From: Xestospongia bergquistia
Taxonomy: Eukaryota > Porifera > Demospongiae > Haplosclerida > Petrosiidae
Direction of reading: 5' to 3'
Length of the DNA: 64,000 nucleotides
Assembly (NCBI GenBank): GCA_963965975.1
Contig: OZ014411.1
Location: forward strand, 25,964,249 to 26,028,248
A program made the position numbers and the translations under genes. Positions 2,814 through 54,149 of the stretch are shown one piece after another; position 1 is the stretch's first letter, and each line of letters starts with the position of its first letter. The notes under the pieces were generated by a model. It was given only the letters and a program-made list of their open reading frames with translations. It was not told where the DNA came from and ran no database searches.

Positions 2814-5800
2814 ATGGGCACAACTAACTCTAAAGATAACTTGGTAAGTTGTAAATACTTTCTAGTGGGGAAAGTCCACATATTTGATGATGTTTGCTTG
2901 ACGCATGTAGATCTCAGTTGTCTCGACTTATAGCGATAAGTGTAGATATACAATATGCGATAATCCGTATACAATTTAGGCATTAGCACTGTATTGGCCT
3001 TTTGATAAATTTTGCCTGTGTTGTTTGCCTAAGCAAAGTGTTGATCATATTACTATAGCATCATAATAGATATAATTATAACAATTATTTTGTAATGTTG
3101 TATATAAGAACCAACATCAGCTCCGTGTTTTTAGAATATTCGTTATAACCATAGATAGTAGAGTATACTAGTCTACTCTACTATCTATGGTACAATTTTG
3201 ATGATTTTATGGATTTTATGAAATTATCCGGACTTTCATTTTAATGTAATAAGAAAATCTGTATATCTAATATTTCCCTAAAAAAGTGTGTATGGATGGA
3301 CATGTGCATAAAGGTGTAGGAACAATTTTGTCATTGGGGGGGGGCACATATGTAACATTTTAACATTGTTCAGTTTAACAATGAAGTATTTCAAAAACAA
3401 CCAAAATAAAACCTTCTGTCGTTTACACTGACGAAACTTTTTGCAATATCAGTAAGGTCCATAAGGCATTGATTCAGTGAAATCTCTGTGAACATACATC
3501 AGCATAAGTGCGTTTAACCGAGGCTGTGTCATCATAGATCTAAGAAAGGTTTAAGTTTTCAAAAGCTCTGTTTGTTTCCTAAACCTATTCTTTGGTTTTG
3601 CTTATGCTATATTTACTACTGTGAGAAGTGACATGTGCACATGCAATTTTGCACTATTCAGTGTGAATGGGTTATTGGAATTTTAATGTTTTACATCTAA
3701 AGGTGTAAATTGTATTTTGAGGCTAGGGATTGCTAATCTAAATCAGTTGATTTTGAAACCATCTCACAATATACCCAAAATATTGGGGGGGGGGGGGGGG
3801 GGGGGGCACGTGCCCCCTGTGCCCCTCTGTTCCTACACCTAAGATATGTATTAACCAAATTTACTATACTAGAATTACAAATTGCATACATTTCTTGTTA
3901 AGTTTCTGTAATAGATCTTACTGCCTCTTTCTCCCTGAGTTAATAAAGGCACACCATCTAGTCTTGAGCCAATTTTATATATGATATTGATATGTTACCG
4001 TAAGATTGTGTATATAGGGATTTTGCGAAATCTCTGAGACTTTCAGGGAGTTTGTGAAATCACTTTTTTACTTAGGGACTTCATAAAACCCTAAATCCTA
4101 AGCCCTAACCTGAAGTCCCTAAGTGAAAAAGTAAATGAAAAAGTGATTTCACAAACTTCCTGAAAGTTTCAGGGATTTCGTAAAATCCCTATATACACAA
4201 TCTTACTGTAACAGATATATAATCATATATTATTTGAATATATTTCAATAATAGATACTGAGATTGGTTAATGCTGCCACTGAAGGTAATGTTCAAGCAG
4301 TGAATGACTGTCTTCAACATTTACAAGGTCCTGACATTGATTGTACAGAACAGTATAATGTAAGTTTCTAAAATATTCAAATATAATAATCACGCTGCCT
4401 TTGAATAATTGAATTATCATTAATCTATTAATTTTTATCATGATTTTAGTTTGTTCTAACATCATGTTAACTTTATGATCTATCTTTATTTGTTACCACA
4501 GACTAAACGAACTCCATTACAATGTGCTGCTGCAAATGGTCATGTTGATGTATTGAAAATTCTCCTAGACTCAAATGCTAACAAAAATAAAAAGGACACT
4601 GTAAGATTTCTAATAATTACTATGACATTTATAATGCTATTAATTTGTATGGTTAAAATATGTCTACATTGTAACATCACTAGTTCTGTCATATTAGTTA
4701 ACATTGTATTTTTATATATTATAGAAAGGGAAGACAGCTATGCACATGGCTGCTGAAAATGGGCATTCTAAAGTAGTGTCTCTTCTTTTAGAATACAAAG
4801 CTTTAGTTAACTCCCGAGATAATGTAAGTTATGTAACTAGAATAATGTCTGCATTGAGAATAAAACAATACTTAATGTTATGTTATAATTATATAATAAA
4901 ACTTTATATAGGACCATTTAACAGCTCTTCAATATGCTTATTATGGAGGACATGAGGAAGTGATTCAAATATTACTCTCTGCAAATGCTACTCATTTTAG
5001 CGATACTGCTAAGGTTAGTCAACAAAAGATGCAATAATTCAACACAAGCTACACTATGAGAGTGTAAGAAACCCTAAAACAGTGTTTGTAGTGCTTAATT
5101 CAATTATATATACCTGTCCAACGTTATCTTCGCATGACATAGAGATAAGTGTCTAGATAATGCATGTTACTATAGCAGTTGTTTAAACTATTTATAATTA
5201 AACTTATTTAATGGCATTTACTTTGTTCTATTATAGAATTTTAAGTTGATTGGGTCAACTGAGAGAGGTGATCTTGATAAAGTCAAAGAATGTATTGACA
5301 ATGGGGCTGATGTCAACTACATACACAAAACAGTATGCATAATATAGATGTGTATATTATTTCTAATATGGATGCCTTCTACTTAGAAGCCATAAAATTA
5401 AATAGTAGGGCTTATATAATTATATTATAAGATTCATGAGTGTTATCTAATTCTATATACCTACTTAAATTATTATTCCACTTTCTTTTTTTCATTGCAT
5501 TAGTATAGTCTATTTCTTCCTTTATTAGATTAAACTGAGCTCCTTGCATCTTTCTGCTATAAAAGGACACAATGAAATAGCTAGGACTTTATTGCGTCAT
5601 GGTTCTGATATGAAAATTAAGGATGAAGTAAGATTAATATAATGTTGTCAGTTACTCATTCATTTTCAATGTAGGCTGAACGGACACCACTTCATTGGGC
5701 ATGTAATAAAGGAAATCATGATCTTGTTCAAATATTACTTGAACATATAAATGATTCAAATGATGTATGTTATTTACTTTTAAACAATAATAATAACATT

Positions 5801-8800
5801 TTGTGACCTCTTTGTTATCATTGTGTGAACTCAAACAATATCTTTCTTTAGGATGTCCTAGTTCTTCAGGATATATGGGGTGACTCTCCTCTTCATCTTG
5901 CTTGTCGTAATGGAAATGTTGCTATTGTCAAATCACTTCTTTCTACACTTTTTTATGTCAACTGTAATTTGACAAACATTGATGACAAAACACCTTCGGA
6001 TGTTATTAGTAGTGACATCTCAGATCAAGACAGACAGGAAATATTGTCACTTTTGAAAACTGTTAATCATACAGAAACTGATGAACTTAATACATCTATG
6101 GAAGAAGAAAGTGTTGATGCTGGTGTTGCTGTTACAAGTGCAATGGTATATTTAATTAGGTCTAATATTAGCAATATATGACATTGTTCTATAATAGGAT
6201 TCTGATCCTAGCCACGAAGGAGAAGTCCAAATGATAAAGAAATCTTTACGTAAAGACAGTAAAGTGGACATTTTCGACACCCCTGAGGTTAGTTTCTTGT
6301 CTTCAAACCATGTATATTAAATCATTCAAGATACTGAAGGTACCCCACTCTAGTAACATGTACAAGTATCCTTATAACATGCTCCTATTAACTAACCTTT
6401 TCATCAGTTTCCATATATTCAGTTAGTACTGGTGTAGATTAATATGCAATATAGCTTCATAAATTTGGAGTTTCTTCAAATAATTATTTTGATTTTATTT
6501 ATGATGAGGAAGTTATCATTTCCTCTTCAATGAAAATGATCCCATTGTTTGCATTGTAATTGACAATAGAAGAATGTAATGAGGAAGTTATTAATTTCTC
6601 TACAACGAAAAGTGTATCATTGCACATTATTATTTAGCCCCACCTTTATCTACAAACCAAGTTCTATTATATTATTCTCCTTTAGAATCTAGAGTTAGCT
6701 GGAGCTGCAAAACAAGGTGATCTTGAAAAAATTTCAGTGTGCATTGAAAAAGGAGCAAGTGTTAATCATATTGACAAGATGGTAATCAGATTGTAATTAA
6801 AAATTACTAATATTACCTAACATCATCTGTCTTTTAATATTATAATCTTTTGATTTCTTAGAAACAAACTCCTTTGCATCATGCTGCAATATATGGAAAT
6901 GCAAAAGTAGTAGCATTTTTGTTGGAGAGGAGGGCAGATCTAGTAATCAAGGATGTGGTCAGTAGTTACATATAAATTTATAATAATAATAATATACCAA
7001 TTGCATGTAACATTAGAATACTTTGTGGCTTAAAATATAACTAATCAGAGAAAGGACAGTTAGCATATGTATTTTTTCATAATACATTCTTCAGCTAATT
7101 AACTTATATGAAAAATATTTATTCATCAATTTTAAAAGTTACTATTTCTTCCTCATTTCAATTTGTAGCATGGGCAAACTGCTCTTCATTTGGCATGCAT
7201 TGAAGATAGGAAAGAAGTTATTAAAGTTATGTTGGAAATGAATGAGACTCAGTTTCATGTAAGTTTCAATTATTGTTAGTTGTATATTCTTGTATTAACT
7301 GCTGAACATATTATAGCTAATGTATAAGAATATTGTCCTGCAAGTTCTCTAAAACTTTGTAATGTAGATATTCAAAAAATGCTTCATAACATTGAATTGA
7401 AGACCCTTAAATTGGTTCTAATATCATAGTAAAGCTAAAAAAATTATTAAGTGCAAATATAAAATGAGTAAGGCAGGGGGTAGGAATGAAGTTTAAGTTG
7501 GGGGGGGGGGCTGACCTTAGCGTTATTTTATTAAACATCAAAAATGACCAAACAAATTAATTCATCTGTCGTTAAAAGAAACAAACTCTTTAGCTATTTC
7601 TAATAAGTTTATGTTATCAGTATGGTCCTTATGTGTATGTAACAGCATGACATGGTTTAGTCGTTCTTGGGTCATAGTACTTTGTAGGTCATTTTATAGT
7701 CAGGAGTAATATTGAAAAAGTGCATTCCATTCTATTAATACTTTTGTTATAGCAATTAATTTTACAGAAGGTAACATCACTACACAATAATGTGGTGATT
7801 GATTGTTAACACAATAACCACCTCAGTCAAGAGGTTATTATGTACATAGTCTTGATTGCAAGTCAGGTGGGCTTAGCCCTCCTGATTTGAAGTTGGGGGG
7901 GCTTCAGCCCCTCCTGCCCCCCTTTCCTACCCTTATGGAGTAAGGTATCTATGAAATAGGGTAGCAATTTTTTCATTTTATAGGAATGCCTCAAATATCA
8001 AAATAACTCAGGAAACATACCTTTGCATTGTGCATGCAAAGTTGGCAACATTGACATAATCCATTTACTACTGCTTCATCAAAGTGCTGACACAATTAAT
8101 GTCCAAAACAGATCTGGTCAAAGACCTATTGAAATGATTCCACATAATGTGCCTAACATCATAGATTTGCTTGAGCTTTTTAGACCTAGCTCACGAAAAG
8201 AATATTTTATTGTTCCTCAAACTCGGGTGTTCATGTGTGGAAATCCTGGAGCAGGGAAGAGCACACTTGCTGAATTAATATCACAATATGATCCCAATCA
8301 TCTTCCAACTAACATACTTCCTAAAGAGCAGACCCAAAGAGTGATAACTACCATTGATGAGAGTCAAAACATTATTCTCTATGACTTTGGGGGGCAACTC
8401 GACTACATGAGCTATGCTGCTGCTCTTGACAAGATTATAGTTGATTCTCCTTCAGTTTTTATTTTGGTTGTCAACTTAGCTGATAATCATGACAAAATTA
8501 AAACAGCCTTAAAAAATTGGCTCTCTTTTATTGACAATACAATTGCCAAAATATCTAAGCCATCTCAGCTTATTGTTGTTGGAAACCATAGAAACAATGT
8601 CCAAAATACAGATATTAAAAAACTGAGTAAGTATGTACATAAAACAATGGGATCAATCACCCATCTTAATTTGAAAGCAGTAACTCCTCTTGAATGTCAG
8701 AATCCTGAAATCAAGCAAGCTACCAAGCTTATGGAATATTTAAAAGAAAGTACCAAATTAATTGGGAGCATGTCTAAATCACATAGCGTTAGCTTCGATT

Positions 8801-10681
8801 GCTATTGTTTGTATGCTTCATTACAATCTAAATATAATGATATTCCAACTAACTTAGAGAAAGTCACTTCTGACTTTTCCAAAACTGCTGCTGAGTTGAC
8901 ACAATTGTTAGAAACACTAAGTGCTAAAGGATTGATTTTGTATTTGAAAGTGGAAAACACCTGTTGGATAATTGCCAATGAGTCTTGTTTTTGGAATGAA
9001 GTCACTAACAAGCTTTTTACATCAGCAAATACAGAGGATAGAGTTTTTAGTAATACTGGAGTAGTTGCACGTTCAGCTTTTGAAGAATTGTTTCCTAATT
9101 ACAATGGCATTGTAGATATTCTGAAAAGCCTACAAATTTGTGATACTATTGACTCAAATATAGTAACTAAAAAGACAAACATTCGCACAAAGACAAATGT
9201 TTCAGAACCATCCGAAGAGCTTCTCTACTTTCCATCCTTAGTTAGCACAGAGCCTCACTCTAAAGCTACAATCAAAAAAGGATATGGTTGGGGTCTCTTT
9301 TATAGCAATGATGAAAATGTCCTTCCTAATACTTTTCGTGACAAGCTGCTTTTGCAACTTGCATATAATGAATGTCTCACAGTGCGCGAAAAAATTGGGC
9401 GAATTGGTTCAGTGAGAAGGAAAGAAGGTGTTGTAGCTTTAAATCGAAGGTGTGAAGTGTGGACAAATGGTATCTACTGGAAAAGTGTAAAAAATGTTGA
9501 AGTTACTGTCCAAATTACAAACTACAATCGATTTGTGACTGTGGTAGTGTCCAAATGCGACCCAGTAGAAGTCAGTCAACTTCGTTGTTCAGTTATAAGA
9601 AAAATTCAAACCTTACTAAAAGAACTAAACCTTCCATTTGATAACATTTTTGAAGCTGTAATATATCCAAAGGATATTCCTAAAATTCGCACTGCTGATC
9701 CAAGAGACTTGACGCTTATTCCAATTGAAGAAGTTGCCTACCACATGTTGCAAAGAACTGAGGTTATTCCCATTGAAGATTGTGATGTCGATGACATTAA
9801 ATTAAAGAAACTTATCGGTAAAGCAGAGCCTTATTCCATTATATCTCCTTCTGTTATAAAAGAGCTTTTTAATGATGAAAAAGCTGATCAAAAGTTATCA
9901 GAGGAAAGCTTTAAACATATCCAGCATGCCTGCATTGAGCTAAAACTGACAGTATCTGTAACTCGCTGTCATACTTATTCTCAAGTTAGGGGATTCTTAA
10001 ATAGGTGGAGCTTGTTTTCTGGAAAAAATCCATTGGTAAGTAAAATCTTACTACAACCACTCATTCAGATAATATTATATAACGGATTTAAAATTTATAT
10101 AGAACATTGCTGACCCAGCTCTTTCAGATGAAGAAATTGAAAAATTGTCCTTATCAACAAAACAAGCAGCATTACTTGGTAAGCATAATAAATAAATATT
10201 TAACACATACTGAAAATGATATCACTTGATGCTTTAATTTGATTACAAAATATTACCAATTAAATGTGATTGATGAGGTTTAAACACACTAGTAAAAATT
10301 TCTATTAACTTTATGTTGTAATTATCACGTTTCTATTCTTTAATTTCATAAGATAAAACTCCAGATAAAAGAGATGTACTTGATTTACTTGCAACAGTTG
10401 CTGCTAGATGGAGGAATATTGGTGATGCCCTTGGAGTATCAAACGACAACCTAGACTCAATTGACAGTGATCGCTCAATCGATGATAAAGGTCGACTTTC
10501 CAAAGTTATACAAAAGTGGATAGAAGAAATGCCCTCTGATGTAACCTGGAGAACTATCATTGAAGCAGTACGTGGTAATATTGTACAAAATGAAAACAAA
10601 GCCAGAGAAATTGAAGAATTCTTAAAAACATACTATATACAACAAAAATACATTAATGCAAAAACATTTAGTAAAAAATGA
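2814..10681 (+). CDS. Gene A: ankyrin-Roc-COR-death domain protein, about 1280 aa
   Basis: Sixteen exons: 2814-2843, 4255-4359, 4502-4600, 4725-4823, 4912-5013, 5237-5332, 5529-5627, 5675-5764, 5852-6145, 6198-6287, 6686-6781, 6862-6957, 7169-7258, 7984-10035, 10103-10178, 10353-10681. All join in phase, giving 1280 codons plus TGA. Exon 1 encodes only MGTTNSKDNL, an MGxxxS N-myristoylation pattern. Exons 2-13 carry about 12 ankyrin repeats, mostly one per exon. Exon 14 begins with a further repeat, then a Roc GTPase (P-loop GNPGAGKS at residues 548-555, G3 DFGGQ at 596-600, atypical G4 NHRN at 663-666) and a COR-type region to about 1090. Exon 16 is a death domain (about 1180-1265; ARWRNIGDALGV). 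The order resembles DAPK1 without its kinase. A likely role is a membrane-attached GTPase scaffold in death-fold signalling; the role is inferred, the domains are clear. Confidence 0.88.
3149..3190. repeat. Perfect hairpin, 17-base arms, in intron 1 of A
   Basis: CCATAGATAGTAGAGTA and its exact reverse complement are separated by 8 bases. It lies in intron 1 of gene A and is not evident in intron 1 of B or C. It is probably the collapsed remnant of a small inverted-repeat transposon. Confidence 0.7.
3312..3840. mobile_element. Non-autonomous DNA element with G-rich ends, intron 1 of A
   Basis: The ends are an exact 13-base inverted repeat, AGGTGTAGGAACA at 3312-3324 and its complement at 3828-3840. 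Inside each end is a guanine tract: 9 G near 3336 and 22 G at 3785-3806. No coding capacity. Internal bits such as CTGTCGTT and ATCAGTA-GGTCC are shared with the element at 7469-7935, so they appear to belong to one family. Introns 1 of B (504 bases) and C (263 bases) lack it, which indicates insertion after the genes duplicated. Confidence 0.7.
3995..4211. mobile_element. Foldback MITE, about 217 bp, intron 1 of A
   Basis: The two halves are long imperfect inverted repeats. The left end begins TTACCGTAAGATTGTGTATA, and the right end carries its complement ending CAATCTTACTGTAA. The arms run about 90 bases around a short AAACCCTAAATCC-type centre. No coding capacity. It is absent from the same intron of B and C. 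Confidence 0.8.
7469..7935. mobile_element. Second G-rich-ended DNA element, intron 13 of A
   Basis: Imperfect terminal inverted repeats are built on TAAGG...GGTAGGAA at the left (7469-7486) and TTCCTACCCTTA at the right (7924-7935). A run of 10 G lies just inside the left end near 7501, and C-rich and G-rich tracts near the right. The interior resembles the 3312-3840 element. It accounts for the extra length of A intron 13 compared with B and C. No coding capacity. Confidence 0.6.
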
Positions 10682-12048: not shown

Positions 12049-15000
12049 ATGGCACAGAAGAGATTGGTAAGTTAACTATATACTACAAAAAAGGACACGT
12101 CTCTTTAGTTATTTTTACAACGAACAACAATAGCATCGTTTTTTTGATTTTTTTAGAATAAGCAAATGATTTCTGCTTTTGAGAGTGGTGATCTAGAAGC
12201 AGTAAAAGCTGCTATTGAAAAAGGAGCTGACATTAATGCTAAAGATGGCGTGAGTTAAGTGCAATCTATACAGATAGTATTCCTTAATGATTTAGAATAG
12301 GATGACTTTGCTGCATCATGCCACAAAAGAAGGTGAAACAGATCATATGAGGTGGCTACTCAAGAACAGAGCTTACCCTGATTGTACTGATGGAGTAAGT
12401 ACAAATTGAAACACCACATTATATCAGTCACATGCACAATAACTTACCACTACACTATAGAGTCCCATATCAATGACATTAACTTGTACACCAATGACTG
12501 AGACCTGTAGTACAATAAATTAAACTGAATGATAAAAATAGACTCATTTACACTGCAATGTCCTTTCAATATAATCTAAATTACCCTAGCTTTTACTATA
12601 TAATAAACAATGAAGATACAATGTACCACCTCATTTAATAAAGCTCACTATTAAGTTGTGCTGTATAATAACAGCTAATGTGTAAAAATTAATATTAATA
12701 TTTAACAATTAATTTGTAGTTTAAAAGTATGGATTACTATGAACATGTAACCTTACTCCAGAATGATCAGACATTTGAACCTCCTCTAAAATCTCTGACC
12801 ATGCAAGACATATACAAACAGTGTATAGATAATCTTAATGATAAAAAATAGACAAACAGCAACTTAATTTGCATATCCTCTTCAAATGACTCACATGATT
12901 GCTCTTTTCTGGATTCCATAGTAAAGAATACATGTACACTTATATAGTTAGCATTTTAATGAATGTTATGGAATTTAACTCATGCATGTTGATAACATTA
13001 TCAAGCATTTGTAATTATGTATGGTGTGATGTTAAAGCTAGATTTGGTATAAAATAACATATACACCATATAATATTATATACTTAAACTTCATTAAATG
13101 TGACCTGATTTGCAAAAAGGGACCACTTCTGTCACAACATTTGTGACCTGATTTGTGAAAAAAACACTGTTAAACATAACAATAAACAGTTTGCATACAT
13201 GTAGAATAGTTATGCATATGTATCAGCTGTATGTATACAAAACTGAGATGTTTGAGATGTTTTAACAGTAATTTGTTCAAACGTCAGGTCACAAATGCTT
13301 TGACAGAAGTGGTCCCTTTTTGCAAATCAGGTCACAATGATAGCACACTTGTCATAGTTTTAGTTTTCTTTTATCATAATTGCATTCATAGCCATGACAT
13401 CAATGTATAGGAGTAGCAGGGTTAAAACATTTTAATACTATACTACATGCCTTGTGCACATACATGTACTATATACTAACATTGAAAGGTAAACTTACTC
13501 ATCTAGTGGCTGAAAGAGACAAACAGCAACTTAATTTGTATATCCTTTCAAATGACACACATCATTAGTCTCTGGATTCCACAGTAATGTATCATTTAGC
13601 ATACATCTATATATACTATATAGCTAGTCTTCTTATGATTGTGATGGAATTTAGCTCATGTATTACAAAGTGGTATGACATACCTACTTATGGTGAGTGT
13701 AACAGTTAATACATGGTGTAGTAAGTGCCAACTCTATAAATAAAGAAAGAAAACTGGTAGGTGTATTCATGCACTCTCTCATCTAGATAAAGTAGGCATA
13801 GTGTTTGTAAACATAATAAAATGTATATAATAAACAATATTAAAGGATAGAACACCTGTTACAGTTTTAGTTTGCAAATTGCTTGTTACCATAGTTTTAT
13901 TTATAGCTATGAAAGGAAGATCTACAAATAGAGTAGCAAAGTTAAAAGTATTTAGTAATAAAAATATGTAGATGATACATTTGATTATCATGAATGTGCT
14001 CATAGTAAGTTAAAGTACATACTATGCATATTATGTTTTTAAAGTTTGTGTATAATATTGTATTTCAAAATTATATATAATATAGAATATGTGGACACCG
14101 TTGCATTATGCTGCTATGGATGGTGATATTGAATCAATGCAGGTGCTACTTGAGTTTGGAGCTAATCGCAAAGCTGGGGATGGGGTAAGTAACATGATCA
14201 TAATAATATGACAATAATTTTATTCAACGAGAGGCAAATATCTATAATAATAACAAAATAATGACATATTCTGAGTAACATATTTTGAGAGCTTTAAGTG
14301 AAGCTATGTGATTATATTTGAGATTTACTCTTTAGAACAATTTCACACCAATGTACTATGCTGAGAAAGAAGGCCATAAACAAGCTGTTCAACTACTGAA
14401 AGATGGTTCTATCACCTCAAAATTATATGTAAGTGTAATTATAAAATAGAAGAGATAGGATAAGCTAGTAAAACCAGTATGAAGCCACAAAATTCTTTAA
14501 ATACATACATATATCCTGCTTGCAAGTGAAGGGACTTCATAACTGTTTTAATTAAACATTTCATTTGCAGGAACCACCTCCTAAGCCACTAACAGCTCAA
14601 CAAGAAAAACGTACGTTATGTCAAATATATAAATGGCATTTGTACTTAATAATTTGTACAGTATAATAATGTAAAAGCATCATCATAAACACTTAACACA
14701 AATTTTGAGCAGTTATTAATATTCGTAAAAATTATGCTAAAGATCCACTTGAGCTCATGCCATATACATGTAAGAAATTATTGAGGTTTCAGTAAAGTTA
14801 CTTAACCCTCAGCTTTATTAAATAACATGAATTTGCCTATTTTTTGTTTGCACAGAGATAAATATACAGCGCATTCTGAAGAAAAGGCCAGAAAAAATTG
14901 ACTTGTTGAATCAGCTCGCTTCCATTAAAGCAAAATGGTCAGAACTTGGAGAAGGGTTATGTGTAGATGATGGAGATATCGAATCTATCATGCGGAGCAA

Positions 15001-15187
15001 CCTAAGGGATGAAGGTAAATTGTCAGCTGTTTTGCAGAAATGGATGGATACCATGAAATCTCCTGTTACATGGGAAAAGATTATAGAAGTTGTGCAAGGT
15101 CCACTTGTGAATAATACTGCCGTAGCTAATAAGATGAGATCTTTTTTGTCACAGGAAGACACTTTTGAAAAGTATCTTAACATTTAA
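12049..15187 (+). CDS. Gene D: ankyrin-death domain protein, about 257 aa
   Basis: Exons 12049-12066, 12157-12249, 12296-12394, 14086-14184, 14336-14428, 14571-14610 and 14856-15187 join in phase to 257 codons plus TAA. The first exon encodes only MAQKRL. Exons 2-5 are four ankyrin repeats, one per exon (for example NRMTLLHHA and NMWTPLHYA). A short linker exon (EPPPKPLTAQQEK) leads to a C-terminal death domain (about residues 160-245; KWSELGEGLCV, SPVTWEKIIEVV). The final exon is 332 bases, exactly the length of the death-domain exon of gene C, which it resembles more than those of A or B. There is no GTPase and no membrane segment. It is likely a soluble death-domain adaptor for the ANK-Roc proteins next door; partner choice is inference. 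An AATAAA motif lies at 15252-15257. An additional open exon at 12720-12851 could give a short isoform. Confidence 0.8.
12720..12851 (+). other. Possible alternative last exon of gene D
   Basis: Preceded by a good TTTGTAG acceptor and open in phase 0 for 43 codons to TAG, so it can follow exon 3 of gene D directly. It contains FEPPLKSLT, which resembles the EPPPKPLT linker of the longer form, and DYYEHVTLLQ, which resembles the end of an ankyrin repeat. Use of it would give a protein of about 113 aa without a death domain. It could equally be a decayed relic of a duplicated exon. Confidence 0.35.
12851..12925 (+). repeat. Direct repeat in intron 3 of D (copy 2 at 13518-13590)
   Basis: A segment starting GACAAACAGCAACTTAATTT recurs, slightly diverged, at 13518-13590 in the same orientation. 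The two copies flank the foldback element at 13099-13336. It is a local duplication and carries no gene. Confidence 0.6.
13099..13336. mobile_element. Foldback MITE, 238 bp, intron 3 of D
   Basis: The termini are exact 36-base inverted repeats (13099-13134 and 13301-13336), starting TGTGACCTGATTTGC. The next inner segments are again partly complementary. No ORF. It is a typical small non-autonomous DNA transposon. Confidence 0.85.
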
Positions 15188-15373
15188 ATTTTAAAAATGG
15201 ATATGCAGCCGACTTTCTTAGGGGCTATATAAAAACTTAAATAATAAGTGCAATAAACTTATAACTTTTTTGAAATAATTAAATTTTAAATAAAGATAAT
15301 TATTCCTCCTACAAGCTATTTGAGCATGCGTAAAATAGTTAGTTATTTTTGTGTGGCTTCATATTCGTACACT

Positions 15374-18300
15374 ATGACACAGAGACAACTAGTAAGTCTA
15401 CGAACTGTAGTAGCTTTTAACTTACGATTTAACTATAGGATAAAGATCTACTGGCTGCTTGTGAAGCAGGAGATGTACAAAAAGCGGAAGAGGTTATTCA
15501 AAAAGGTGCTAATTTAAGTGCTAAAGACTTGGTAAGTGTATAATGACATCCCATGGTTACGATAGTCTATTGTATAATTCCACAATAAAAGGTTATTTGT
15601 ACATCATAGTCTGTTTTGAGATGTAGTTAAGCCTAAAGCACATTTACCATCATTACTGGCATCTTGCATATCAATTCATAGCTGATCACTGGTATGACAA
15701 ACATTGTAACTGCACAGAAAATTTCATATGGAAATAACAGCATATAACTTTAATATTCTGTTTCTATAATTTTATGATATGTTGTTGTTATATACATTTT
15801 AACACATTCTATAGAATCGATGGACCCCATTGCATCATGCTTCACAAGAAAGTCATATTGATGTAATGAAACTTTTATTCCTGTATGGAGCTGACCCTAA
15901 TCCTAAAGATGGAGTAAGCTTAATTAATAACTTACACAGTATAAAATTTCATACTTAAACTTTTTTTTATCTTACAACATCTGAGAACTTTATTACTAAA
16001 TAGTAGTGTTTCTATTATTATATTCTATGACTTCATTGATGACAAAAGAACTTTATGCTTACAAGCCACACCTTGTTTTTACAGTGAAACTTATAACATC
16101 CCATCTCTGTGAAAATTAATATTGCAATAACGAGGGTAGCCTACAATGAATGTGCATCATATACTCAAGTGCTTAGGGTTTAAGAAGTTTAATGAAAGTC
16201 TGCTAATAGTATAAATGTATAGTATACCTGTAATGATACCATTCCTTGTTATATGATCACCAGAACATTTTGAGATAGAGAGCATGCCATAGAAATTTGT
16301 TAATATGGACAGAACTGTGCTTTATGATACTGTATATATAATACACACAGTCCATATTTTTAACCCTTGCTGCCTTTGTGTGGATGAGGGCTATAGTCTG
16401 ACTGTATGTTAATTAAGCAAAGTACTTTAAGTGACTACCACATGGAATGTGTACATCCTTAAAGAACAAAACTTTGTTGACAGAACTAACTATGTATTTA
16501 TCTGACTTGAAAGCTCTAGCTTTGTAAGTTTAGTTTTGGTATACTTACCTAGGCCTCTTAGCAAATGGATAACTTATTCTATTGTTATGTAATATAAGTC
16601 TTTTTTAATGTTTAGAATATATGGACACCATTACATCATGCTTGTCAAGAAGGTAATATTGATGTCATGACAGTTTTATTACAAAATGGTGCCAATCCAA
16701 ACTGCACTGATGGTGTAAGTCTCATTATCGTTAATCAAATATGTATTTAATACAAACATTATAATTGTTGGTATGTAAAAATGTTTTAAAAGCAATAAAG
16801 TACTATCAGTTGAGAGCAAGCTTTTCGTGATAACATTCCTCTGTGGTTCAAAACATAGAATGTGCTTGCAATCTGTTGCTAAGCTTTTTATGTGTCATTA
16901 GATGTCTTAGCACACAAGTAGCATACACCAACTTTTTGTTTGTCAACTTTAATCCTTACCTATTTAGCTCTCAGTTACTATCAATGCAACATTGATGATA
17001 TAATTGAAGATACCAAGTTTTAAGCTGTGTTGTTTAGAAGGTTTTGAATTGAGTATTTTTTCCTGTACAAATGCCAATATTTTTTTAGAAAAGTTTTATT
17101 AAAAGTATAATTGTTGTATTTCATATTATTTACATCATGTTCTCAGAATGTATGGACACCATTGCATCATGCTTCTAGAGCGGGTCAAATTGAAGTAATG
17201 CGTATACTTCTACAATTTAAGGCTAATCCTATGGCTCCTGATGGAGTAAGTAAATCTTTTATTAAATATATATTTATGTTATTAAATACTACAATATATT
17301 ATATAAATGGGATGTGTTGAATGGTGAGTGAATCTGATTATTTTGTTCATTTAGTTTCAAGAGATTATTTTTATGTCATATGCATGTTGTTTGTTTCACA
17401 AAAGCTTTATTGAGTTTCTATGAAAACCTTTTAAGGTCATTGTCAATAACTATTAATAATTTGTTAATCCATGTTTTAGCAAATCACCTTTCATCATTAA
17501 TTTTATACTTAATTTTTCATTATATAGAACAAATTCACACCATTACACTATGCAACAGAAGAAGGTCTTACAGAAGCTGTAAAACTATTAAAAGACTATA
17601 TAACTGAAGACCAAACCAGCAACTATGTAAGTTATATTTATATAAGGATTTACAATTTTACATTGATGCTTTCTGTTGTAAAACTTTAGTTAATGCATAT
17701 AGCAGTATTGTCCAATGTCTATCCTAACAGTTTTCTAATGTATTGTCCTGTAGCATAAAAAATAGTTTAAGTTTCCTTGTATGTGACAAGACTATATAAA
17801 GACATCATCTTATATATGATTGTTTTAAAGATGACATAAGTTTTGAGAAGCACCACCAATTCTATAGAAGGAACCAAAGCTTGCAAACTAGGCAAAAGAA
17901 AATTCAGTACTTTAAGTTGTTTCGTACAATGATCGAATAAAATAGACATACACAGATACATACATACAAAGTGTTTGAAAACAAGACTCCCTAGCACATG
18001 AAGTATACCAAACAATTGCAAAATTAGCAGAACAAGATTATAACTTTAAAAATCATCCTATCATTGTTTTAGAAGATACTAACTTTACAGTAAAATACTG
18101 ACTAGAGCTACAAAGATTAGATAATTTGCAACAGTGCCTTAGAATACTGGAAATATAGGTAGAGAAGCAAGCTAGTAAGAAGGTTCAATCATAATCAGTC
18201 ACACCATCATTAATACACTTGAGGTTAGCATTAATAAAATTCATTGGTTGCAATATGTGATAGAGTGATAGGTTGTAGCTAAAAGGTTATCAAAGAAACA

Positions 18301-33083: not shown

Positions 33084-33639
33084 AAGATTCTTTTTGTATT
33101 TTTTTAAGTAATATTAAAAGTTATGAATGAATTTTTTGAAACATAATTTGTTTTTAGGCTACAAAGAGATACTATTTTTTAGTGAAGCTGCCATTTTGCT
33201 TTTTGTTCTGAACCACTGTTTATTTATCTATACTCTTATTTGACATTACATGGTATGTAGACTGCTATTGGCATTGAGCTATTGTCAATAGTAAAGTATA
33301 AAATCCTAAAGCCCATTTCTACTCTTAGTTATGTGGATGTGATTTCCATATTTTTCACTTATAGTCTCACATATGCAGTAAAATAGGGGGAATTTTGCCA
33401 GCCTCTGTGTTGATAACGCATTTGTTAATTAATAAATAAAAATAAGGAAATTAGTCTGTTACATATCATATTGGGAATTGTTTAGTGTGTATATTAGCAT
33501 TCATAAATATTACCATGTCCCTAATCTGAACAAGCCACAGATTTGTTGGTAGTTAAGACTAGATACTGGTATTGAAAAAAGTGACTAAATAAAGAGAAGC
33601 AGAACGTATGCTGGCTTAAATGACAAGTGATTTTTTTTT

Positions 33640-35304
33640 CAATTACTACAATGCATATATGAATGGATATGCTAAATGACAAGTAATTAGATTTTTTCAT
33701 TTAGTTTTAAAAAAATACTTTTATGTCAAATGCATGTTGATTATTACACACAAGCTTTTACAGAGTTGATCATGAATAGAATAGAGTCCATATCACTAAC
33801 AAAATATGCATGTGTTCTTTCTGTGTCTATGATTAAAATATATATATTTTCTTTATAAAATTTCTGTGAAATCTTTTAAGACTGTTGTCACTCAATTATT
33901 TTGAATTTATGTTAACAAAAGCTGTACAATTATTAAAAGATTATATAACTGAAGACAAAACTAGCAACTATGTAAATAATATTTATATAAGGATTTGTGT
34001 CTTTTGTAAAATTGTAATAATTACTAACTCACTAAAGAGTGCATTAGTTGTTTAAAATTTGCCACAACTTTTATTTTAATGGTATTGCATATAACAGTAC
34101 TATTGACTACACTATGTATTTGTCTAATGTATGGTTCTATAGTAGCTTTCACAGTAATATTAACAAAATTCATTGTTCCATGTGTGGCAGTGATTAACGT
34201 TTGTGGTTTTATTTTATTTCATTCTCTTTTATTTGTTGGATACAATGATACATATCAAGTGTTTCTAAACAATATAAGACTCCCTAGGACATGAAAAATA
34301 TTGTACAATTAAAGTTTTGTGTCATAATATAGACAGATAAAGAATGAACGCAATGATTTGGCAAATATTATTAAAGGCTAGTTATTGTGTGTTCAGTAGT
34401 CTTAATATTATATTCTAAAATAAGGATATGTATAATAATTGTAATCATTGTTTTAGATTTGAATCTGCAAGTAAGTAGAATCTTGAAAAACTAAAATAAG
34501 TATATAGGAGTGATACTTCTCTAACTTAACTTTATTAATCATCATTATTGCTTACATAACACCTGTGACTTGTATTTTTTTAGTTACATTTTAGTTACAA
34601 TTATCACTATCCTAAGCATGACAAACCACATATTAATAATAGAAACTAAGGTGATATTGTATATAATAGCAAAAGGTTGAATATGAATTATAAAAAACTT
34701 CATTGTCATCATAATAATTCAACAAAGCACTAGTCAAACTCAACATAAACAGTGAAATAATTTTTGGCCTATCCTAACATTACTTTCTTTATTGCTTGAT
34801 AACTATTTTCTTATAAAATAATAATTGTTATTTTCTCGAGAGATTATGTGAAATGTTATTGAATGACTATATTGTCAATTTATGATAGATAATATAGGTG
34901 GTATACAATACATGTTAAGTGTGTGACAAATTCACTAATTCACCAAATAAATTGCCTAACTTAAACCAGTCAAATATAATGACATACATACTGTCATACA
35001 ATGTATACTTCAAAATTTTAACTTATCAAAAATGTTATAATTGTATTGCTAAATTTTAACTTGTTAGAAATAGTTAGGGTTCACCCTTGCTAATTGATTT
35101 GTTATATAGTATATAGTATCAATGGTATAGTATGTTATAATGATGCATTCATACTACATCATACAACAACATGTACTAAAGTATTGCACTCATTTATGTA
35201 AAGGCTCTACCAGTGGAATGATATCAAATAATTCACTAATGTTTGTAACTGTTATTATTGCTGTCACAGCTATTTTCGAGTACAGTTGGAATAAAACTAA
35301 GTAG
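33640..35304 (+). pseudogene. Decayed copy of the 3' half of gene E
   Basis: Similar to 17330-21025. The end of the last ankyrin exon is recognisable at about 33910-33972 (KLLKDYITED-like), and the tail-anchor exon at about 35203-35304. The helix there carries a Glu (VTAIFEYSWNKTK) in place of a hydrophobic residue. The first part of the ankyrin exon, its acceptor and the linker exon are not recognisable. It is 90 percent similar by eye to the minus-strand relic at 59.8-60.5 kb and less so to E. Not functional as it stands. Confidence 0.65.
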
Positions 35305-36814: not shown

Positions 36815-46017
<9,203 letters not shown>

Positions 46018-46462
46018 CTCAGGAACACTATTTAGTAATGAATTCCTTGTAACTATTTGAGCTTTTAATTTAAATTAATACACAATTTTACATGTATAAA
46101 TATTATTTATTGCATTGATTAATTGATATAATAGATATTACAATTTCCTTGTTATTGTTATTGATAAATAGCATTAATAAAAAGTGCTGTTTTGATAATT
46201 ATATGCAATAAACATTACATGCATGTTGATATATGCATGTATTGTATGCTAAAATTAATGATTGTACTAATTAATTATAAAAATGACATCAAACAATTAT
46301 ATTATCATAATTTCATCCATGAAAATAATTGATGCAACAATTGTCCAGTATGAGATCTGTGATAATTGTACCCTATGTATAGAGGTACAAGTATATACAA
46401 AAAAGAATACAGCAAACAAAATTTTTATTTCTAATAAATGTTTTTGCTTTCATGTACTTTTT
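46018..46462. other. 3' flanks of the ABCC gene and gene C
   Basis: Convergent intergenic DNA. AATAAA motifs for the ABCC transcript occur near 46174 and 46205. No gene seen. Confidence 0.5.
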
Positions 46463-46741
46463 TGATTGGAACGTTCTTTCAAGAACTCTTCAATTTCTTT
46501 GGCTTTGTCTTCTCTTTGTACAATGTTATTACATACTGCTTCAATGTTATTTCTCTAGGTTATATTAGAAAGCATTTGTTCTATCCACTTTTTTAAAACT
46601 TTGGAAAGTCAAACTTTATTATCTATTGAGTGATCACTATCCAATGACTTCAGATTGTCATCTGATACTCTAAGGGCTTCACCATTATTCCTCCATTCAG
46701 CAGCAATTGTGGCAAGTAAATCAAGTACATTGTACTTCTAA
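46463..46741 (-). pseudogene. Relic of an A-type death-domain exon, downstream of gene C
   Basis: The reverse strand from 46741 down matches exon 16 of A/B (GTACTTGATTTACTTGCCAC, then a degraded death domain). Stops interrupt it, for example TGA in the KV-LSKV region and TAG where A has TGG in VTWRT. It lies in the position gene C's own last exon should occupy, about 0.5 kb beyond the D-like death-domain exon now used. It appears to be the ancestral exon left to decay. Confidence 0.75.
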
Positions 46742-47225
46742 TCACAGTAATATAACATCAACTACTGGATTTTATATAGAGGAGTGACCTCCATATTTTC
46801 CTCATTTAATATACTATTATAACAATATGTTCTTTATTATTGTTTTTCTGTGATAATAAATGCAAGACATATAATATTATTACTTTACTAATCAAGCAAC
46901 ACGAAAGAGTTTTTTTCAGTCACTGTTATTGCTAGGTTCATCATAATTATAAACTAATCTGTCACATGACATTGTATGTATTTATACAATACAATATCCA
47001 TATACTACAATAAAGTGATATTTGATAGACAGCTGAGGGCCAGTGTAGTACAGCACAGATGTAGTCAGGTATATAATATGTTGTTAATTAGTGGTTATTT
47101 TTAAATGGTAAAAATAGTCAATTATACAAACATTAAACAATCAAATAAGTTTTCTAAAAATAGAAACATTTCAAATTAATAATAGGGTAATAAAACAGTC
47201 AACACACTGTCATATGGTAGTATAG

Positions 47226-50200
47226 TCAGTTCATATTATGTTGATATTTTGAGTACACCTCTGGTTTATTAAGGTATTCACGTATAGTTTCTGCAGTTGC
47301 GTGTTGTCCTACAATAGGTCCCTCCACTGATCTTATAATGTTCTCCCATGTTACAGGACTTGATGTAGTGTCCCTCCAACTAGTCAATACTTCAGTAAGT
47401 CTCACCATATTGGTTTTATTACTTTGAGATAGACCATTAAGAACACATGTTTGTACTCCTAGTGATGAACCAACTTCATTCCATTTGTGTTTAATACATG
47501 CTAGTAGATTGAGTAGATCAAGTTGTTCAGGAACTTTCTTTAACACTGCAGTAATATCTGTATAATATCAAGTCGTTAATAAACTAATAATAGGTATTTG
47601 ACCATATAAAGAAGTAATATATATATATATATATATAACAGAGTCTAGTATATAGTAACTGTTATAGTATTTATAAAGCAGTTATAGTAACCTTATATCA
47701 GTACTAAATAGTCTGAGGTCATATATATTCTTTATGAAAGAGAAATGTGATAATTACAAAATAAAGTTAACAGGACCCATTAAGTATAATTTGCATTTTT
47801 CAATTATATTTCTAAAAACACAGCAAAACTATATCTGTATTAATTTTATTTTGTTAGCATAAATAATATTATGACTCAAATTAAGACTCTCTAAATATCA
47901 AGTGATGTTATGTTCAGTATGTGTTAAATATATTGTAATATTGTTATGCTTACCAAGTAATACTTCTTGTTCTGTTGATAAGGACAATTTTTTAATTTCA
48001 TCATCTGAAAGAGGCGGGTCAGCAATATTCTATATAAATTTTGATTTAGTTATTTTAGTTACCTTTTAGTATTTTTAACTTACCAATGGATCTCTTCCAC
48101 AAAATATGCTGCAATCATTCAAGAGTCTTCTAACATGGGAATAGGTGTCAGAATGAGCTAAAGTAATGGTCAACTTTAGTTCAGAACAAACATATTGGAT
48201 ATGTTTAAAACTCTCTTCTGATAATGTTTCATCAGCTATTTCGTCATCAAAAAGCTCTTTTATGACAGAAGGAGATATAATTGAATAAGGCTCTGCTTTA
48301 CCGATAAGTTTCTTCAACTTAATGTCATCAACATTGTAATCTCTAAGGGGAATGACCTCAGTTCTTTTCAACATGTGGTAGGCAACATCTTCAATATAAA
48401 TAAGTGTTAGGTCATTTGGATCAGCAGTGCGAATTTTAGGAAGATCCTTTGGGTATATTACAGCTTCAAAAATGTTATCAAATGGAAGGTTTAGTTCATT
48501 TAGTAAAGTTTGAATTTTTTTTATAACTGAACAACGAAGTTGACTGACTTCTACTGGGTCGCATTTGGACACTACCACAGTCACAAATCGATTGTAGTTT
48601 GTAATTTGGACAGTAACTTCAACATTTTTTTCACTTTTCCAGTAGATACCGTTTGTCCACACTTCACAACTTCGGTTTAAACCTAGAACACCTTGTTTCT
48701 TTCTCAATAAACCAAGTCGCCCAATTTTTTCACGCAGTGTGTGACATTCACTATATGCAAGTTGCAAAAGGAGCTTGTCACGAAAAGTATTAGGAAGGAC
48801 ATTTTCATTATTGCTATAAAAGACACCCCAACCATACCCTTTTTCAATGGTAACATTAGAGCTGGGCTCAGTGCTAACTAAGGATGGAAAGTAGAGAAGC
48901 TCTTCTGATGGTTCTGGTTTTTTTTCTGTTGCACGAATGTTTGTCTCTTTAGTTACTATACTGGAGTCAAAAGTACAACAAATTTGTAGGCTTTTCAAAA
49001 TATTTACAATGCCGTCATAGTCAGGAAACAACTTTTCAAACGCTGAACGTAAAATTACTCCAGTATTACTGAAAACACTATTTTTTGCTTCTACTGACGT
49101 GAGAAGCTTGTTAGTGACTTCATTCCAAAAACGAGACTCATCGGCAATTATCCAATGGGTGTTTTCCACTTTCAAATACAAAATCAAACCTTTGCCACTT
49201 AGCGTTTCTAACAATTGTGTCAACTTAGCAGCACTTTTGGAAAAGTCAGAAGTAATTTTCTCTAAGTTAGTTGGAATATCCTTATATTTAGATTGTAGTG
49301 AAACATACACACTATAGCAATCGAAGCTAACAGTATGTGATTTAGACATGCTCCCAATTAATTTGGTGCTTTCTTTTAAATATTCCATAAGCTTGGTAGC
49401 TTCTTTGATTTCAGGATTCTGACATTCAAGAGGAATTACTGCTTTCAAATTAAGATGAGTGATTGATCCCATAGTTTTATATACATACTTACTCAGTTTT
49501 TTGATATCTGTATTTTGGACACTGTTTCTATGGTTTCCAACAACAATAAGCTGAGATGGCTTAGATATTTTGGCAATTGCATTGTCAATAAAAGAAAGCC
49601 AATTTTTTAAGGCTGTTTTAATTTTGTCATAATTATCAGCTAAATTGACAACCAAAATAAAAACTGAAGGAGAATCAACTATAATCTTTTCAAGAGCAGC
49701 AGAGTAGCTCATGTAGTCGAGTTGTCCAACAAAATCATAGAGAACAACATTTTGACCCTCATCAATTGTAGTTATCATTCTTTGTGTCTGCACTTTAGGA
49801 AGTATGTTAGTTGGAAGATCATTGGGATCATATTTTGATATTAATTCAGCAAGTGTGCTCTTCCCTGATCCAGGATTTCCACACATGAACACTCGAGTTT
49901 GAGGAACTATAAAATATTCTTTTCGAGAGCTAGGTCTGAAAAGCTCTAGTGAATCTATGATTTCAGACATACTATCTGGAATCATTTCAATTGGTCTTTG
50001 ACCAGATCTGTTTTGGACATTAATTGTGTCAGCACTTTGATGGAGCAGTAGTAAACGAATTGCGTCAATGTTGCCAACTTTGCATGCACAATGCAAAGGT
50101 GTGTTTCCTGAGTTATTTTGATATTTAAGGCATTCCTATAATATTAAAAAAATCATAATTGAGCATCTCAAAATAATAGCTCTTTTATGTATTAATATTA

Positions 50201-53200
50201 CTGTTGTAATGTTTTTAACATAGATTGAAGATAATACTAACTAGATAGTTGGCATTTTTTCTAATTTAATAGGACTGCTTATAGCAGGATGTTATTGTAG
50301 TTACTCTAAAAATTTGTAGCTCCTTTTCAAAAAAGCCTATTATCCTGTCAAAATTTACCTAGGATTAATTGTCTTGTCTGAAAAATAACCATAAAAGTAT
50401 ACTGCTCTAATTTATGGCAGATGCATATAACATAACTATTGTATATATATAAGTTGTTATAGAGGAGAGTTTGGGACAGATAAGAAAGATATCTTACCTT
50501 AGTTTACTTTAGATAATTAATCAAAAAAATCATTTGAAAGGCTCTTCAATGCAATCCAATGAAGCATTTTTGAACATCTACCATTACAATTTTTTGCAGG
50601 ACTACAGTATAATATTCTTATACATTAGCTATAATATGCTCAGCAGTTAATACAAGAATATACAACTAACAATAATTGAAACTTACACGAAACTGACTCT
50701 CATTCATTTCCAACATAACTTGAATAACTTCTTTCCTATCTTCAATGCATGCCAAATGAAGAGCAGTTTGCCCATGCTTCAGATTAAAATAAGGAGAAAC
50801 AGTAACTTATTAAAATTAGTAAATTAATCTTTTCTTAATAATATAAGCTAGTGTAGTGTTTACTGTTATACTTAAATTGTTTCCTTATAAGGTTTTCACA
50901 ACTGGTATAGCTACTTGTGTAAATCTCATGTAATAGTATTTAAATACTAATGAATAACAATTTAAAATCTTAATTGAAGTTACTACAGTTAGCTCAAGAA
51001 TGTTTCAAGAAAATGTTAATGCCATTTCTCTGGTTATTTGTATTTTAAGTTTTATTTCAAAGTCACATACAAATAAAAGTTATTAAAAATTTGATAATTA
51101 CTAATTACACATTGTAAGATACGTACCACATCCTTGATAGCTAGATCTGCCTTCTTTTCCATCAAAAGGGCTACTACTTTTGTATTTCCATACATTGCAG
51201 CATGATGCAAAGGAGTTTGTTTCTAATAAGAGAAGATATTAACACTACATATTTTAATTATAATCTAATTACCATCTTGTCTATATGGTTAACATTTGCT
51301 CCTTTTTCAATGCATTTTGACACTTTTTCAAGATCATCTTGCTCTGCAGCTACAACTAACTCCAAATTCTATATAAGAATAAAATTTTCAAAAGCAATCA
51401 TTGAACCTATATAGTTGTAGTGAGGGGTGGGGCTAAAAAATGTTGTGCAATGCCACACTTTTCATTATAGAGACACCAGTAAAATCTTATAATATTCTTC
51501 TATTGTTGTAACAATGCAAACAACGGGATCATTTTCATTGAAGAGGAAGTGATAACTTCCTCATCTTATCGATAAAATCAAAATAAATATTTCAAGAAAC
51601 TCCAAATTTACAAAGCAGCTATGTATACCACATTAATCTATGTCAATAGTACTAACTGAATGTATGGGAACCAACAAAAGATAGAACATTAATTTGTATA
51701 ACAAGATTATGTTTTAAATACAACATCATTAGTTAAGAGTTAATTAATGAGGTCATGTTATAAGAAAAACCACATGTACAATCATTAATGTGAAAAAGAA
51801 ACTGACCTCGGGGGGATCCAAAATATCCACATTTATCTCTTTACAACAAGATTTTACCATTTTGACTTCTTCCTCTTGGCTAGCATCAAAATCCTATTAG
51901 AACAATGTCATGCATTTCTAATACTAAATATAATTGAATTAACCATTGCATTTGTAACAGCAGCACTAGTATGAACATTTTCTTCTTCCACAGATGCATT
52001 TATTTCATCAGTTTCTGTATGATTAACAGTTTTCAAAAGTGACAGTATTTCCTGTCTGTCTTGATCTGAGATGTCACTGCTAATAACATCTGAAGGAGTT
52101 TTGTCATCAATGTTTGTCAAATTACAGTTGACATAAAAAAGTGTAGAAAGAAGTGATTTGACAATAGCAACATTTCCATTACTACAAGCAAGGTGAAGAG
52201 GAGAGTTACCCCATATATCCTGAAGAACTAGGACATCCTAAAGAAAGATATTATTTGAGTACACACAATGATAACAAAGAGGCATTAAAATGTTTTTGTT
52301 TGAGAGTAAATGACTTACATCATTTGAGTTATTTATATGTTCAAGCAATATTTGAACGAGATCATGATTTCCTTTATTACATGCCCAATGAAGTGGTGTC
52401 CGTTCACTCTAAATTCACAGGATGAAAATGAGCAAGTAACTGACTATATTTTATTACTCTTACTTTGTCTTTAATTTTCATGTCAGCACCATGACGCAGT
52501 AAAATCCTAGCTATTTCATTATGCTGGTTCATAATAGAATGATGCAAGGAGCTATACTAGTGTAATGAAAACAGGAAAGTGGAATAATAATCAAAGTAGA
52601 CAGAAGCAGATAACACTCATAAAGTTTATAATATAATTATATAAGCCTTACTATCTAGTTTTATGGTTTATAACTAGAAGGCATCCATATTAGAAATACT
52701 ATACACATGTTTATTATACATACTGTTTTGTGTATGTAGTTGATATCAGCCCCATTGTCAATACACTCTTTGACTTTATCAAGATCACCTCTCTCAGCAG
52801 CCCCAATCAACTTTAAATTCTACAATAGAACAAAGTAAATGCCATTAAACACATTTAATTATAAATAGTTTAAACAGCCGCTATAGTAACATATATTAAC
52901 TAGACCCTTATCACTATGACATGCAGACATAATGTCGAACGCCCACGGGTATATTTAATGAAGCATCTAATTGAACTAAGCACTACAAATATTGTTTTAG
53001 GATTTTTCATACTCTTATTATACATAATGTAGCTTGTGTTGAAGTACTACATCTTTTGTTGACTAACCTTAGCAGTTTCACTAAAACGAGTAGCATTTGC
53101 AGAGAGTAATATTTGAATCACTTCCTCGTGTCCTCCATAATAAGCATATTGAAGAGGAGTGAAATGGTCCTTTATAAAGATTTATTATATAATTATAACA

Positions 53201-54149
53201 TAACATTCAGTATTGTTTTATTCACAATGCAGACGTTATTCTACTTTAATTAGTTACATAACTTACAAAATCTCGGAAGTTAACTAAAGCTTTGTATTTT
53301 AAAAGAAGAGACACTACTTTAGAATGTCCATTTTCAGCAGCCATGTGCATAGCTGTCTTTCCTCTCTATAATATATAAAATACAATGTTAACTAATATGA
53401 CAGAACAAGTGATGTTACAATGTAGACATATTTTAAGCACACAAATTAATAGCATTATAAATGTCATAGTAATTATTAGAAATCTTACAGTGTCTTTTTT
53501 ATTTTTGTTAGCGTTTGAGTCTAGGAGAATTTTCAATACATCAACATGACCATTTGCAGCAGCACATTGTAATGGAGTTCGTTTAGTCTGTGGTAACATA
53601 TTTAGATAGATCATAAAGTTAACAAGACATTGGAATTAACTAAAATCGCAATAACAATTAATTTATTCAAGTCTACCAAAGTTTAATAACCATTCAACTA
53701 TTCATTTGCAAAGGCTGCGTCATTATTATATTTAATATTTTAGAAACTTACATTATACTGCTCTGTACAATCAATGTCAGCACCTTGTAAATGCTGAAGG
53801 CAGTCACTCACTGCTTGAACGTTACCTTCAGTAGCAGCATTAAGCAATCTCAGTTTCTATTGTTGAAATATATCATAACCAAGATTATAAAAACATGGCT
53901 AATGTTGGTTCTTATATACAACATAATATGTTGCTTAGGCAAACAGCACAGGCAAAATTTATTAAAACGCCAATAGCAGTGCTAATACCTAAAATGTCTT
54001 CGGATTATCGTATATTGTATATCTACACCGTACTTATCGCTATAAGTTATGCGTCTATCAAATGTCTCAAATGTACGGATTTTACATACGTTAGCCAGTA
54101 AAAAGTATTTACAACTTACCAAGTTATTTTTAGAGCTAGCTGTGCCCAT
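47226..54149 (-). CDS. Gene C: ankyrin-Roc-COR-death domain protein, about 1278 aa
   Basis: Minus-strand paralogue of A and B. Exons in transcript order: 54149-54120, 53856-53752, 53587-53489, 53365-53267, 53169-53068, 52819-52724, 52556-52464, 52408-52319, 52237-51944, 51893-51807, 51368-51273, 51222-51127, 50776-50687, 50135-48084, 48029-47954, 47557-47226. All have GT-AG borders and join in phase. Protein: MGTASSKNNL myristoylation-type start, about 12 ankyrin repeats, Roc (P-loop GNPGSGKS at about 545-552; G3 is DFVGQ at about 593-597 where A and B have DFGGQ; NHRN G4), COR to about 1085, and a C-terminal death domain that resembles gene D (KWNEVGSSLGV, SPVTWENIIRSVEGP) rather than A/B. 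The last exon is 332 bases, the same as D's. It is structurally the cleanest of the three paralogues. Role inferred as for A. Confidence 0.87.

Follow-up and report, generated by a model that had tools for sequence, protein, structure and literature searches.

Ankyrin, Roc-COR and death-domain genes clustered in a sponge: local duplicates of a very large family, with altered GTP motifs and an apparently replaced death domain

Does the close packing of genes built from ankyrin repeats (ANK), Roc-COR cores and death domains (DD) mark a dedicated signalling module, or does it reflect the way in which a very large family is spread over its genome? The question is raised by a 64-kb window of the sponge Xestospongia bergquistia (C1:25964249-26028248 in a 146-Mb, 21-contig assembly; GC content 28-38% in 4-kb steps; "the window" refers to this whole stretch), which holds three Roco genes (A, B and C), a gene combining ANK with a DD (D) and a gene for an ANK protein with a membrane tail (E). 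What is unusual here is how large the Roco repertoire is, that guanosine triphosphate (GTP)-binding motifs were lost under constraint in the A/B/C clade and that a DD was replaced, while the co-location of the genes is ordinary. The reading that we favour, with moderate confidence, is that the A, B and C proteins would be membrane-tethered scaffolds that no longer work as ordinary GTP switches and whose output was rewired by the swap of a DD exon.

A preliminary description of the window had recognized five genes, and this anatomy was borne out, as all of them could be modelled with splice sites and open frames. Exon models were predicted with a small home-made splice-aware finder together with protein similarity to outside relatives, and the splice sites were then verified on the sequence. 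A first run of the finder that used no homology produced chimeric models, which were discarded, as were several low-scoring later models. The predicted features are the following (positions in the window):

2814..10681, forward strand: gene A, 16 exons, 1280 residues; MGTTNSK start, ANK mostly one repeat per exon, Roc-COR, linker, DD
7984..10035, forward: exon of A with the last ANK repeat, Roc and COR, 2052 bases
10353..10681, forward: terminal DD exon of A (Pfam Death 27.5 bits on the open reading frame)
12049..15187, forward: gene D, 6 exons, 224 residues; ANK and DD, without Roc
14856..15187, forward: DD exon of D
15374..21025, forward: gene E, 8 exons, 218 residues; ANK and C-terminal membrane tail
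20925..21025, forward: tail-anchor exon of E
21932..30241, forward: gene B, 14 exons, 1197 residues; order as in A, ANK part damaged
27544..29595, forward: Roc-COR exon of B
29913..30241, forward: DD exon 1 of B
31514..31842, forward: second intact A-type DD exon of B, with the entry phase of DD exon 1
32740..33110, forward: third A-type DD copy behind B, a relic interrupted by stops
33631..35301, forward: E' relic behind B, last ANK piece and tail piece
46396..46742, reverse: decayed A-type DD behind the insert in C, with in-frame stops
46728..47788, reverse: insert of C with the new DD exon, matching C12:5392075-5393131
47226..54149, reverse: gene C, 16 exons, 1278 residues; MGTASSK start, ANK, Roc-COR, linker, DD
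47226..47557, reverse: DD exon of C as modelled, 94% amino acid identity to the C12 DD
48084..50135, reverse: Roc-COR exon of C
59794..59877, reverse: E'' tail relic upstream of C

Genes A and C are intact 16-exon genes in which most ANK exons measure 87-105 bases, are in phase 0 and hold about one repeat each, one of them being 294 bases long; the 2052-base ANK-Roc-COR exon is followed by a 76-base linker exon and then by the DD exon. Gene B is open throughout, but compared with A one of its exons could not be located, the donor of one ANK exon is gone, and one donor contains a 2-base insertion. A-type DD exons occur once in A and as two intact copies behind the Roc-COR exon of B, where the third copy is broken by stops, and the second intact exon of B is possibly an alternative last exon. 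The single architecture earlier ascribed to A, B and C therefore holds for the domain order, while the DD of C is not that of A and the ANK part of B is damaged. Aligned over 3778 columns, exons and introns together, genes A and B are 95.9% identical, and C aligns to the two of them in inverted order; to judge from these comparisons, the three are local duplicates in a very large ANK-Roc-COR-DD family. The start MG-x-x-x-[STAGCN], an N-myristoylation pattern, is matched by A, B and C and not by D or E, and the first three are predicted to be N-myristoylated, in line with the membrane targeting proposed before. The second intron of B also contains a DEAD helicase fragment (23458-23679, forward; PF00270, 29.5 bits) in a stretch without counterpart in A.

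A Pfam scan of the spliced A protein (E up to 0.001), the only one of the three Roco proteins scanned whole, gave ANK, Roc (26.5 bits, cut-off 27) and Death (22.7 bits, cut-off 22.6) and no kinase, confirming for A the DAPK-like domain order without a kinase. On the exon alone, Roc scored 27.2 bits in A, 27.0 in B and 24.4 in C (cut-off 27), and Pfam returned no COR match in any of the three. The COR domain of A is placed directly after Roc by the predicted fold rather than by Pfam: the structural model of the Roc-COR exon (mean predicted local distance difference test score, pLDDT, 83) has a Ras-like Roc part and matches LRRK1, LRRK2 and prokaryotic Roco proteins over Roc and COR, the LRRK2 match spanning model residues 74-673. 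Relatives were compared in an alignment of 62 rows (A plus 61 of the 113 database matches to its exon), in which Pfam COR-B was detected in 7/62 and COR-A in 1/62 at E 0.01.

In this alignment the G4 position is Asp in 58 of the 62 rows and Asn in A, P0003, P0004 and P0005 (NHRN for SHxD), and the switch-I Thr is kept in 57, being replaced by Pro in the same four and by Lys in P0029, which leaves four rows, A included, that have lost both. P0003-P0005 are close database relatives, some of which may be gene C itself. All 20 outside paralogues that were read keep the G4 Asp as well as the switch-I Thr (18 as TAG[I/V]; L031 and L035 as TTGI), and a pattern check found neither residue in A, B or C (0/3). 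Among the rows and loci compared, the double loss is thus confined to A, B, C and close kin; in a 40-row tree the A/B/C clade is supported at 100/100, and its stem measures 1.37 changes per column. The P-loop (GNPG[AS]GKS) and the D..G of G3 (DFGGQ/DFVGQ) are retained in the three genes. The ratio of nonsynonymous to synonymous substitution rates (dN/dS) in the Roc-COR exon is 0.40 for A-B, 0.37 for A-C and 0.32 for B-C, and 0.28-0.35 in the ANK-Roc part of the exon; the protein therefore looks constrained although its GTP motifs are lost. The name "GTPase", used for A, B and C in the preliminary description, is weakened by the loss of the two residues and appears doubtful. In Ras-like proteins the change of the G4 Asp to Asn shifts the choice of base, and the clade might still be an active nucleotide switch of changed specificity (for example, not for guanine), which would agree with the conserved P-loop and G3 motif and with purifying selection on the Roc part; we consider this somewhat unlikely, given that the switch-I Thr was lost together with the G4 Asp and that the stem is long.

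Pfam Death scores on single exons lie above the cut-off of 22.6 bits in A (27.5) and B (26.5) and below it in D (21.3) and C (14.5). In a 17-row DD alignment with 9 invariant columns, C and D align with clear DDs, and 14 of the 17 rows match PF00531 at E 0.05; the profile of these rows retrieved 15 PDB sequences at E 0.1 (best E 0.0007), comprising 10 of FADD, 3 of THOC1, a protein with a death domain, and 2 of LSD1. By this alignment the ends of C and D appear homologous to clear death domains. The DDs of A, C and D share 31-42% pairwise identity and do not group together in a mostly unresolved DD tree. Because of this low identity, homotypic pairing among the three is not expected from sequence alone, though it is still possible.

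The DD of C differs from that of A and matches a DD on C12. The A-type DD of C, now with in-frame stops, and the intron that preceded it are still recognizable some 1 kb apart, and the piece that separates them contains an intact DD exon, which has an acceptor and a stop codon of its own. In a genome search this insert (986-base query) matched C12:5392075-5393131 over bases 1-985 at 82%, the joint block occupying 47788-46728 in C, while no match was found between the C12 piece and positions 9501-11800 of A. The two DDs are identical in 103 of 109 residues; the next DDs in the genome reach 61% (on C5) and then 57% or less, many of them in Roco arrays of C11 and C12, and the DD of A is absent among the best 150 of 936 candidates from which these values were drawn. 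The matching C12 piece is the 3' end of a Roco locus, its DD being about 0.8 kb downstream of a COR-A locus in a nine-locus array (C12:5.39-5.46 Mb). Since the insert is absent from the A and B copies, transfer was probably into C, where the second DD would be a gain. The DD exons of C and C12 are 97.6% identical (dS 0.027) while the flank behind the exon is at 80-90% (40-base steps), suggesting that the exon was converted later or is under additional constraint, a suggestion to be held lightly with as few as two synonymous changes. Fourteen further partial matches to the DD cassette of C (68-95%) were found on C9, C4, C5, C12, C8 and C3 over the DD exon or its flanks, and these are possibly other moves of the same cassette.

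What was observed, namely the anatomy, the duplication, the lost motifs, selection acting on the exon and a DD of C unlike that of A and matching C12, leads us to infer a mechanism in which N-myristoylation would tether the A, B or C protein to the membrane and the ankyrin array would serve as a sensor or docking part that binds a ligand or partner. Roco proteins dimerize through Roc-COR, and this core may hold the protein as a dimer or clamp without ordinary GTP switching, until release or clustering of the C-terminal DD nucleates DD partners, with cell death or an immune response as the output. As an interchangeable output part, the terminal DD exon would, when swapped, connect the protein to another output network and leave the sensor as it was; in C, a cassette of about 1 kb resembling that of a C12 Roco locus would have landed before the DD exon of the gene itself, which then decayed. 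Protein D could act as a competitor or adaptor that competes for or bridges DDs, and E as a membrane anchor holding ANK partners. That the system serves immunity or cell death is likewise what we infer.

Several points weigh against this scaffold reading. Because the P-loop and the DxxG motif are retained, nucleotide binding may be altered and not absent, and the model of A is weak near the switch regions (pLDDT below 50 at residues 118-125 and 138-140). The structural model of the DD of D is of low confidence (pLDDT 60) and a fold search with it gave no matches at E 0.001. Loss of a second DD from A and B is an alternative to its gain in C, because 3 of 20 paralogous loci carry tandem DDs; under that alternative, the non-coding flanks common to C and C12 need another cause. 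Furthermore, the gene finder was home-made and, as B is partly decayed, not every copy need be functional.

The size of the family to which A, B and C belong was estimated in two ways. The exon of A had at least 63 matches in its own genome (280 candidates), of which 60 lie outside the window and share 32-37% identity with it over nearly the full length. Pfam COR-A, with 150 of its 171 candidates scored, gave at least 146 loci at E 0.001, and 105 of these exceed the curated cut-off. The two sets show no overlap within 3 kb and amount to at least 209 Roc/COR loci on 14 contigs, a lower bound for such matches that bears out, for this genome, the expansion suggested before; some of these loci carry stops and may be pseudogenes. 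A genome-wide Roc count with PF08477 was unusable for Roco genes, as the 150 scored of 452 candidates were mostly short frames, probably of small Ras-like GTPases. Clusters of three or more loci, with neighbours within 60 kb, include 102 of the 209, whereas 200 random placements gave on average 4.0 and at most 16 clustered loci. In a sample of 20 of the 60 outside loci, a DD was found at most 1.9 kb downstream of the Roc exon in 18, and two DDs in three. About 163 kb from the window, four Roco loci are spaced 30-32 kb apart (C1:26.19-26.29 Mb), and the nearly identical Roc exons of two of them (L030 and L033) mark a young tandem array; at C8:6621565-6635397, four Death-domain matches of equal frame length follow each other at a regular spacing of 4552 bases.

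On a wider scale, it is tentatively conceivable that in this lineage hundreds of Roco proteins form a receptor-like repertoire in which exchangeable terminal DD exons determine the output, DD cassettes move or convert from one Roco subfamily to another across contigs, and some scaffold clades, such as A/B/C, gave up the ordinary GTP switch altogether. A neutral account would see in the window only duplicates with decaying parts under birth and death, each Roco gene acting by itself and no further pathway being common to them. The damage to B, the relics of DD exons and of E, and the generality of clusters in the genome speak for it, but the Roc-COR exon has dN/dS values of 0.31-0.40 and the frames of A and C are open, which argues for use of at least these, and we regard the neutral account as unlikely.

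The remaining two genes agree with the earlier outline, in which D had ANK and a death domain only and E had ANK and a membrane tail only. Gene D consists of three ANK exons and the DD, assigned by homology, in a six-exon model without Roc, and E combines five ANK exons with a hydrophobic tail at the C-terminus, its last exon ending in ..NNTLLLVTVIVVIAVLVYSWNKSK-stop. The tail has a mean hydropathy of 2.45 over 19 residues, a stretch that ends 7 residues before the C-terminus, and E is predicted to be tail-anchored. Of the repeats compared within the window, D3 is nearest to E5 (58%) and D4 to E6 (52%), and D and E are paralogues with a common ankyrin body and different last exons (DD versus tail). 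A whole-genome search with the tail exon of E (E up to 10) returned three matches, all within the window: gene E, the relic behind B and the relic upstream of C. Given these three places, a Roco gene and E were probably duplicated as a block; the relics of E and of DD exons add to what had been described for the window. A self-comparison of the window detected no D copy in its other duplicated blocks. The DD nearest to that of D is at L041 (C1:25340000-25349000), about 0.6 Mb away; the 9 kb read there contain three successive DD exons and no match to ANK, and the adjoining frames presumably represent START domains. In databases, D had 109 matches, mostly ankyrin proteins, among which P0114 and P0115 stand out (86-87% over 49% of D, its DD), and E had 1149, the best 120 listed being dominated by ankyrin proteins.

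It had been proposed that A-E cooperate as one module, with the DD of D binding those of A and C and with E as a membrane partner or decoy. Such a module would fit with the tight linkage, with a common ANK style and with the fact that each of the three Roco copies has E or a relic of its tail next to it. However, the cluster is weak evidence for it, because A, B and C are local duplicates, from which their linkage follows, and clustering is general in this genome; moreover, pairwise identity among the A, C and D DDs is 31-42% and they do not group together in the mostly unresolved tree, that of C is closest to one in the C12 Roco array, and D has neither a copy in the other blocks by the self-comparison nor, within the 9 kb read at its nearest DD, an ANK companion. 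Co-location was accordingly set aside as a sign of a dedicated five-part system, and we hold this cooperation to be quite improbable.

Among known systems, DAPK1, which contains ANK, is close in layout, with ANK, Roc-COR and a C-terminal death domain in the same order as in A. It is placed in Roco group 3, with a DD and with a kinase before Roc-COR (PMC6337361). A differs from it in having no kinase, in its myristoylation-type start, in the loss of the G4 Asp and the switch-I Thr, and in being one of some 200 loci. The only organism-named match among the 113 database matches to the A exon is P0037, a "Death domain-containing protein" of Amphimedon queenslandica (UniRef; 25% identity over 83% of the exon), which likewise has ANK, Roc-like and Death matches within one protein of 985 residues; unlike A, it keeps TAGI and SHVD, and its Pfam Roc and Death matches are both below cut-off. 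The likeness to LRRK1, LRRK2 and prokaryotic Roco proteins lies in the modelled Roc-COR fold, whereas A has ANK directly before Roc, a DD after COR and no kinase. Caiap of fish is an inflammasome adaptor made of a CARD and ANK, and D resembles it (P0128, Gouania) in joining ANK to a death-fold domain; however, Caiap has a CARD and not a DD, and the match (31%), confined to 36% of D, is regarded as one between ankyrin repeats only, so that D would at most work like Caiap.

In a 2024 study, four brown algae have 9-47 ROCO genes per species, stated to be more than in other organisms reported to date, and shuffling of repeat exons was proposed to build immune repertoires in them (PMC11378527). The sponge genes resemble these in the large family and in the one-repeat-per-exon layout, but the algal repeats are leucine-rich repeats (LRR) and not ANK, LRR-ROC-COR being the sole architecture in those algae (PMC11378527), and the exchanged exon here is that of the C-terminal DD. 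Large expansions of TRADD-N joined to death-type domains, often with ankyrin repeats, have been described in marine animals including sponges (PMC8195603); they agree with a role in immunity or cell death but do not prove it. A literature search of the PMC library found no report of a sponge Roco-death expansion, which is not proof of its absence.

Humans have four Roco genes, including LRRK2, involved in Parkinson's disease, and DAPK1, in cancer (PMC6337361, PMC11378527). The sponge genome, with some 200 Roc/COR loci and a DD behind 18 of 20 sampled, offers a natural experiment on what Roc-COR does when no kinase is attached and, in the A/B/C clade, when GTP may no longer be used. Gene C provides a concrete example of a replaced DD whose predecessor persists as a relic, so that the rewiring of DD networks can be tested directly; if the proposal is true, exchange of DD cassettes rewires which DD network a Roco scaffold feeds.

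Other sequences in the window surround these genes. An open frame adjoining gene A (80-694, reverse) matches Vps62 (PF06101, 61 bits), and a single open frame between B and a putative transporter (35658-36221, forward) has an AlkB-like match to 2OG-Fe(II) oxygenase (PF13532). Frames at about 36.8-45.9 kb (forward), including 42208-42486, presumably belong to an ABCC-type transporter, with two short frames of that region giving no Pfam match. Pieces of a gypsy-like long terminal repeat element lie between C and its E relic (55.7-58.9 kb, reverse), one of them with reverse transcriptase and RNase H matches. The stretches at 13.1-13.4 and 18.7-19.4 kb are probably dispersed repeats, since they are common to L032, L033 and L040 in several frames.

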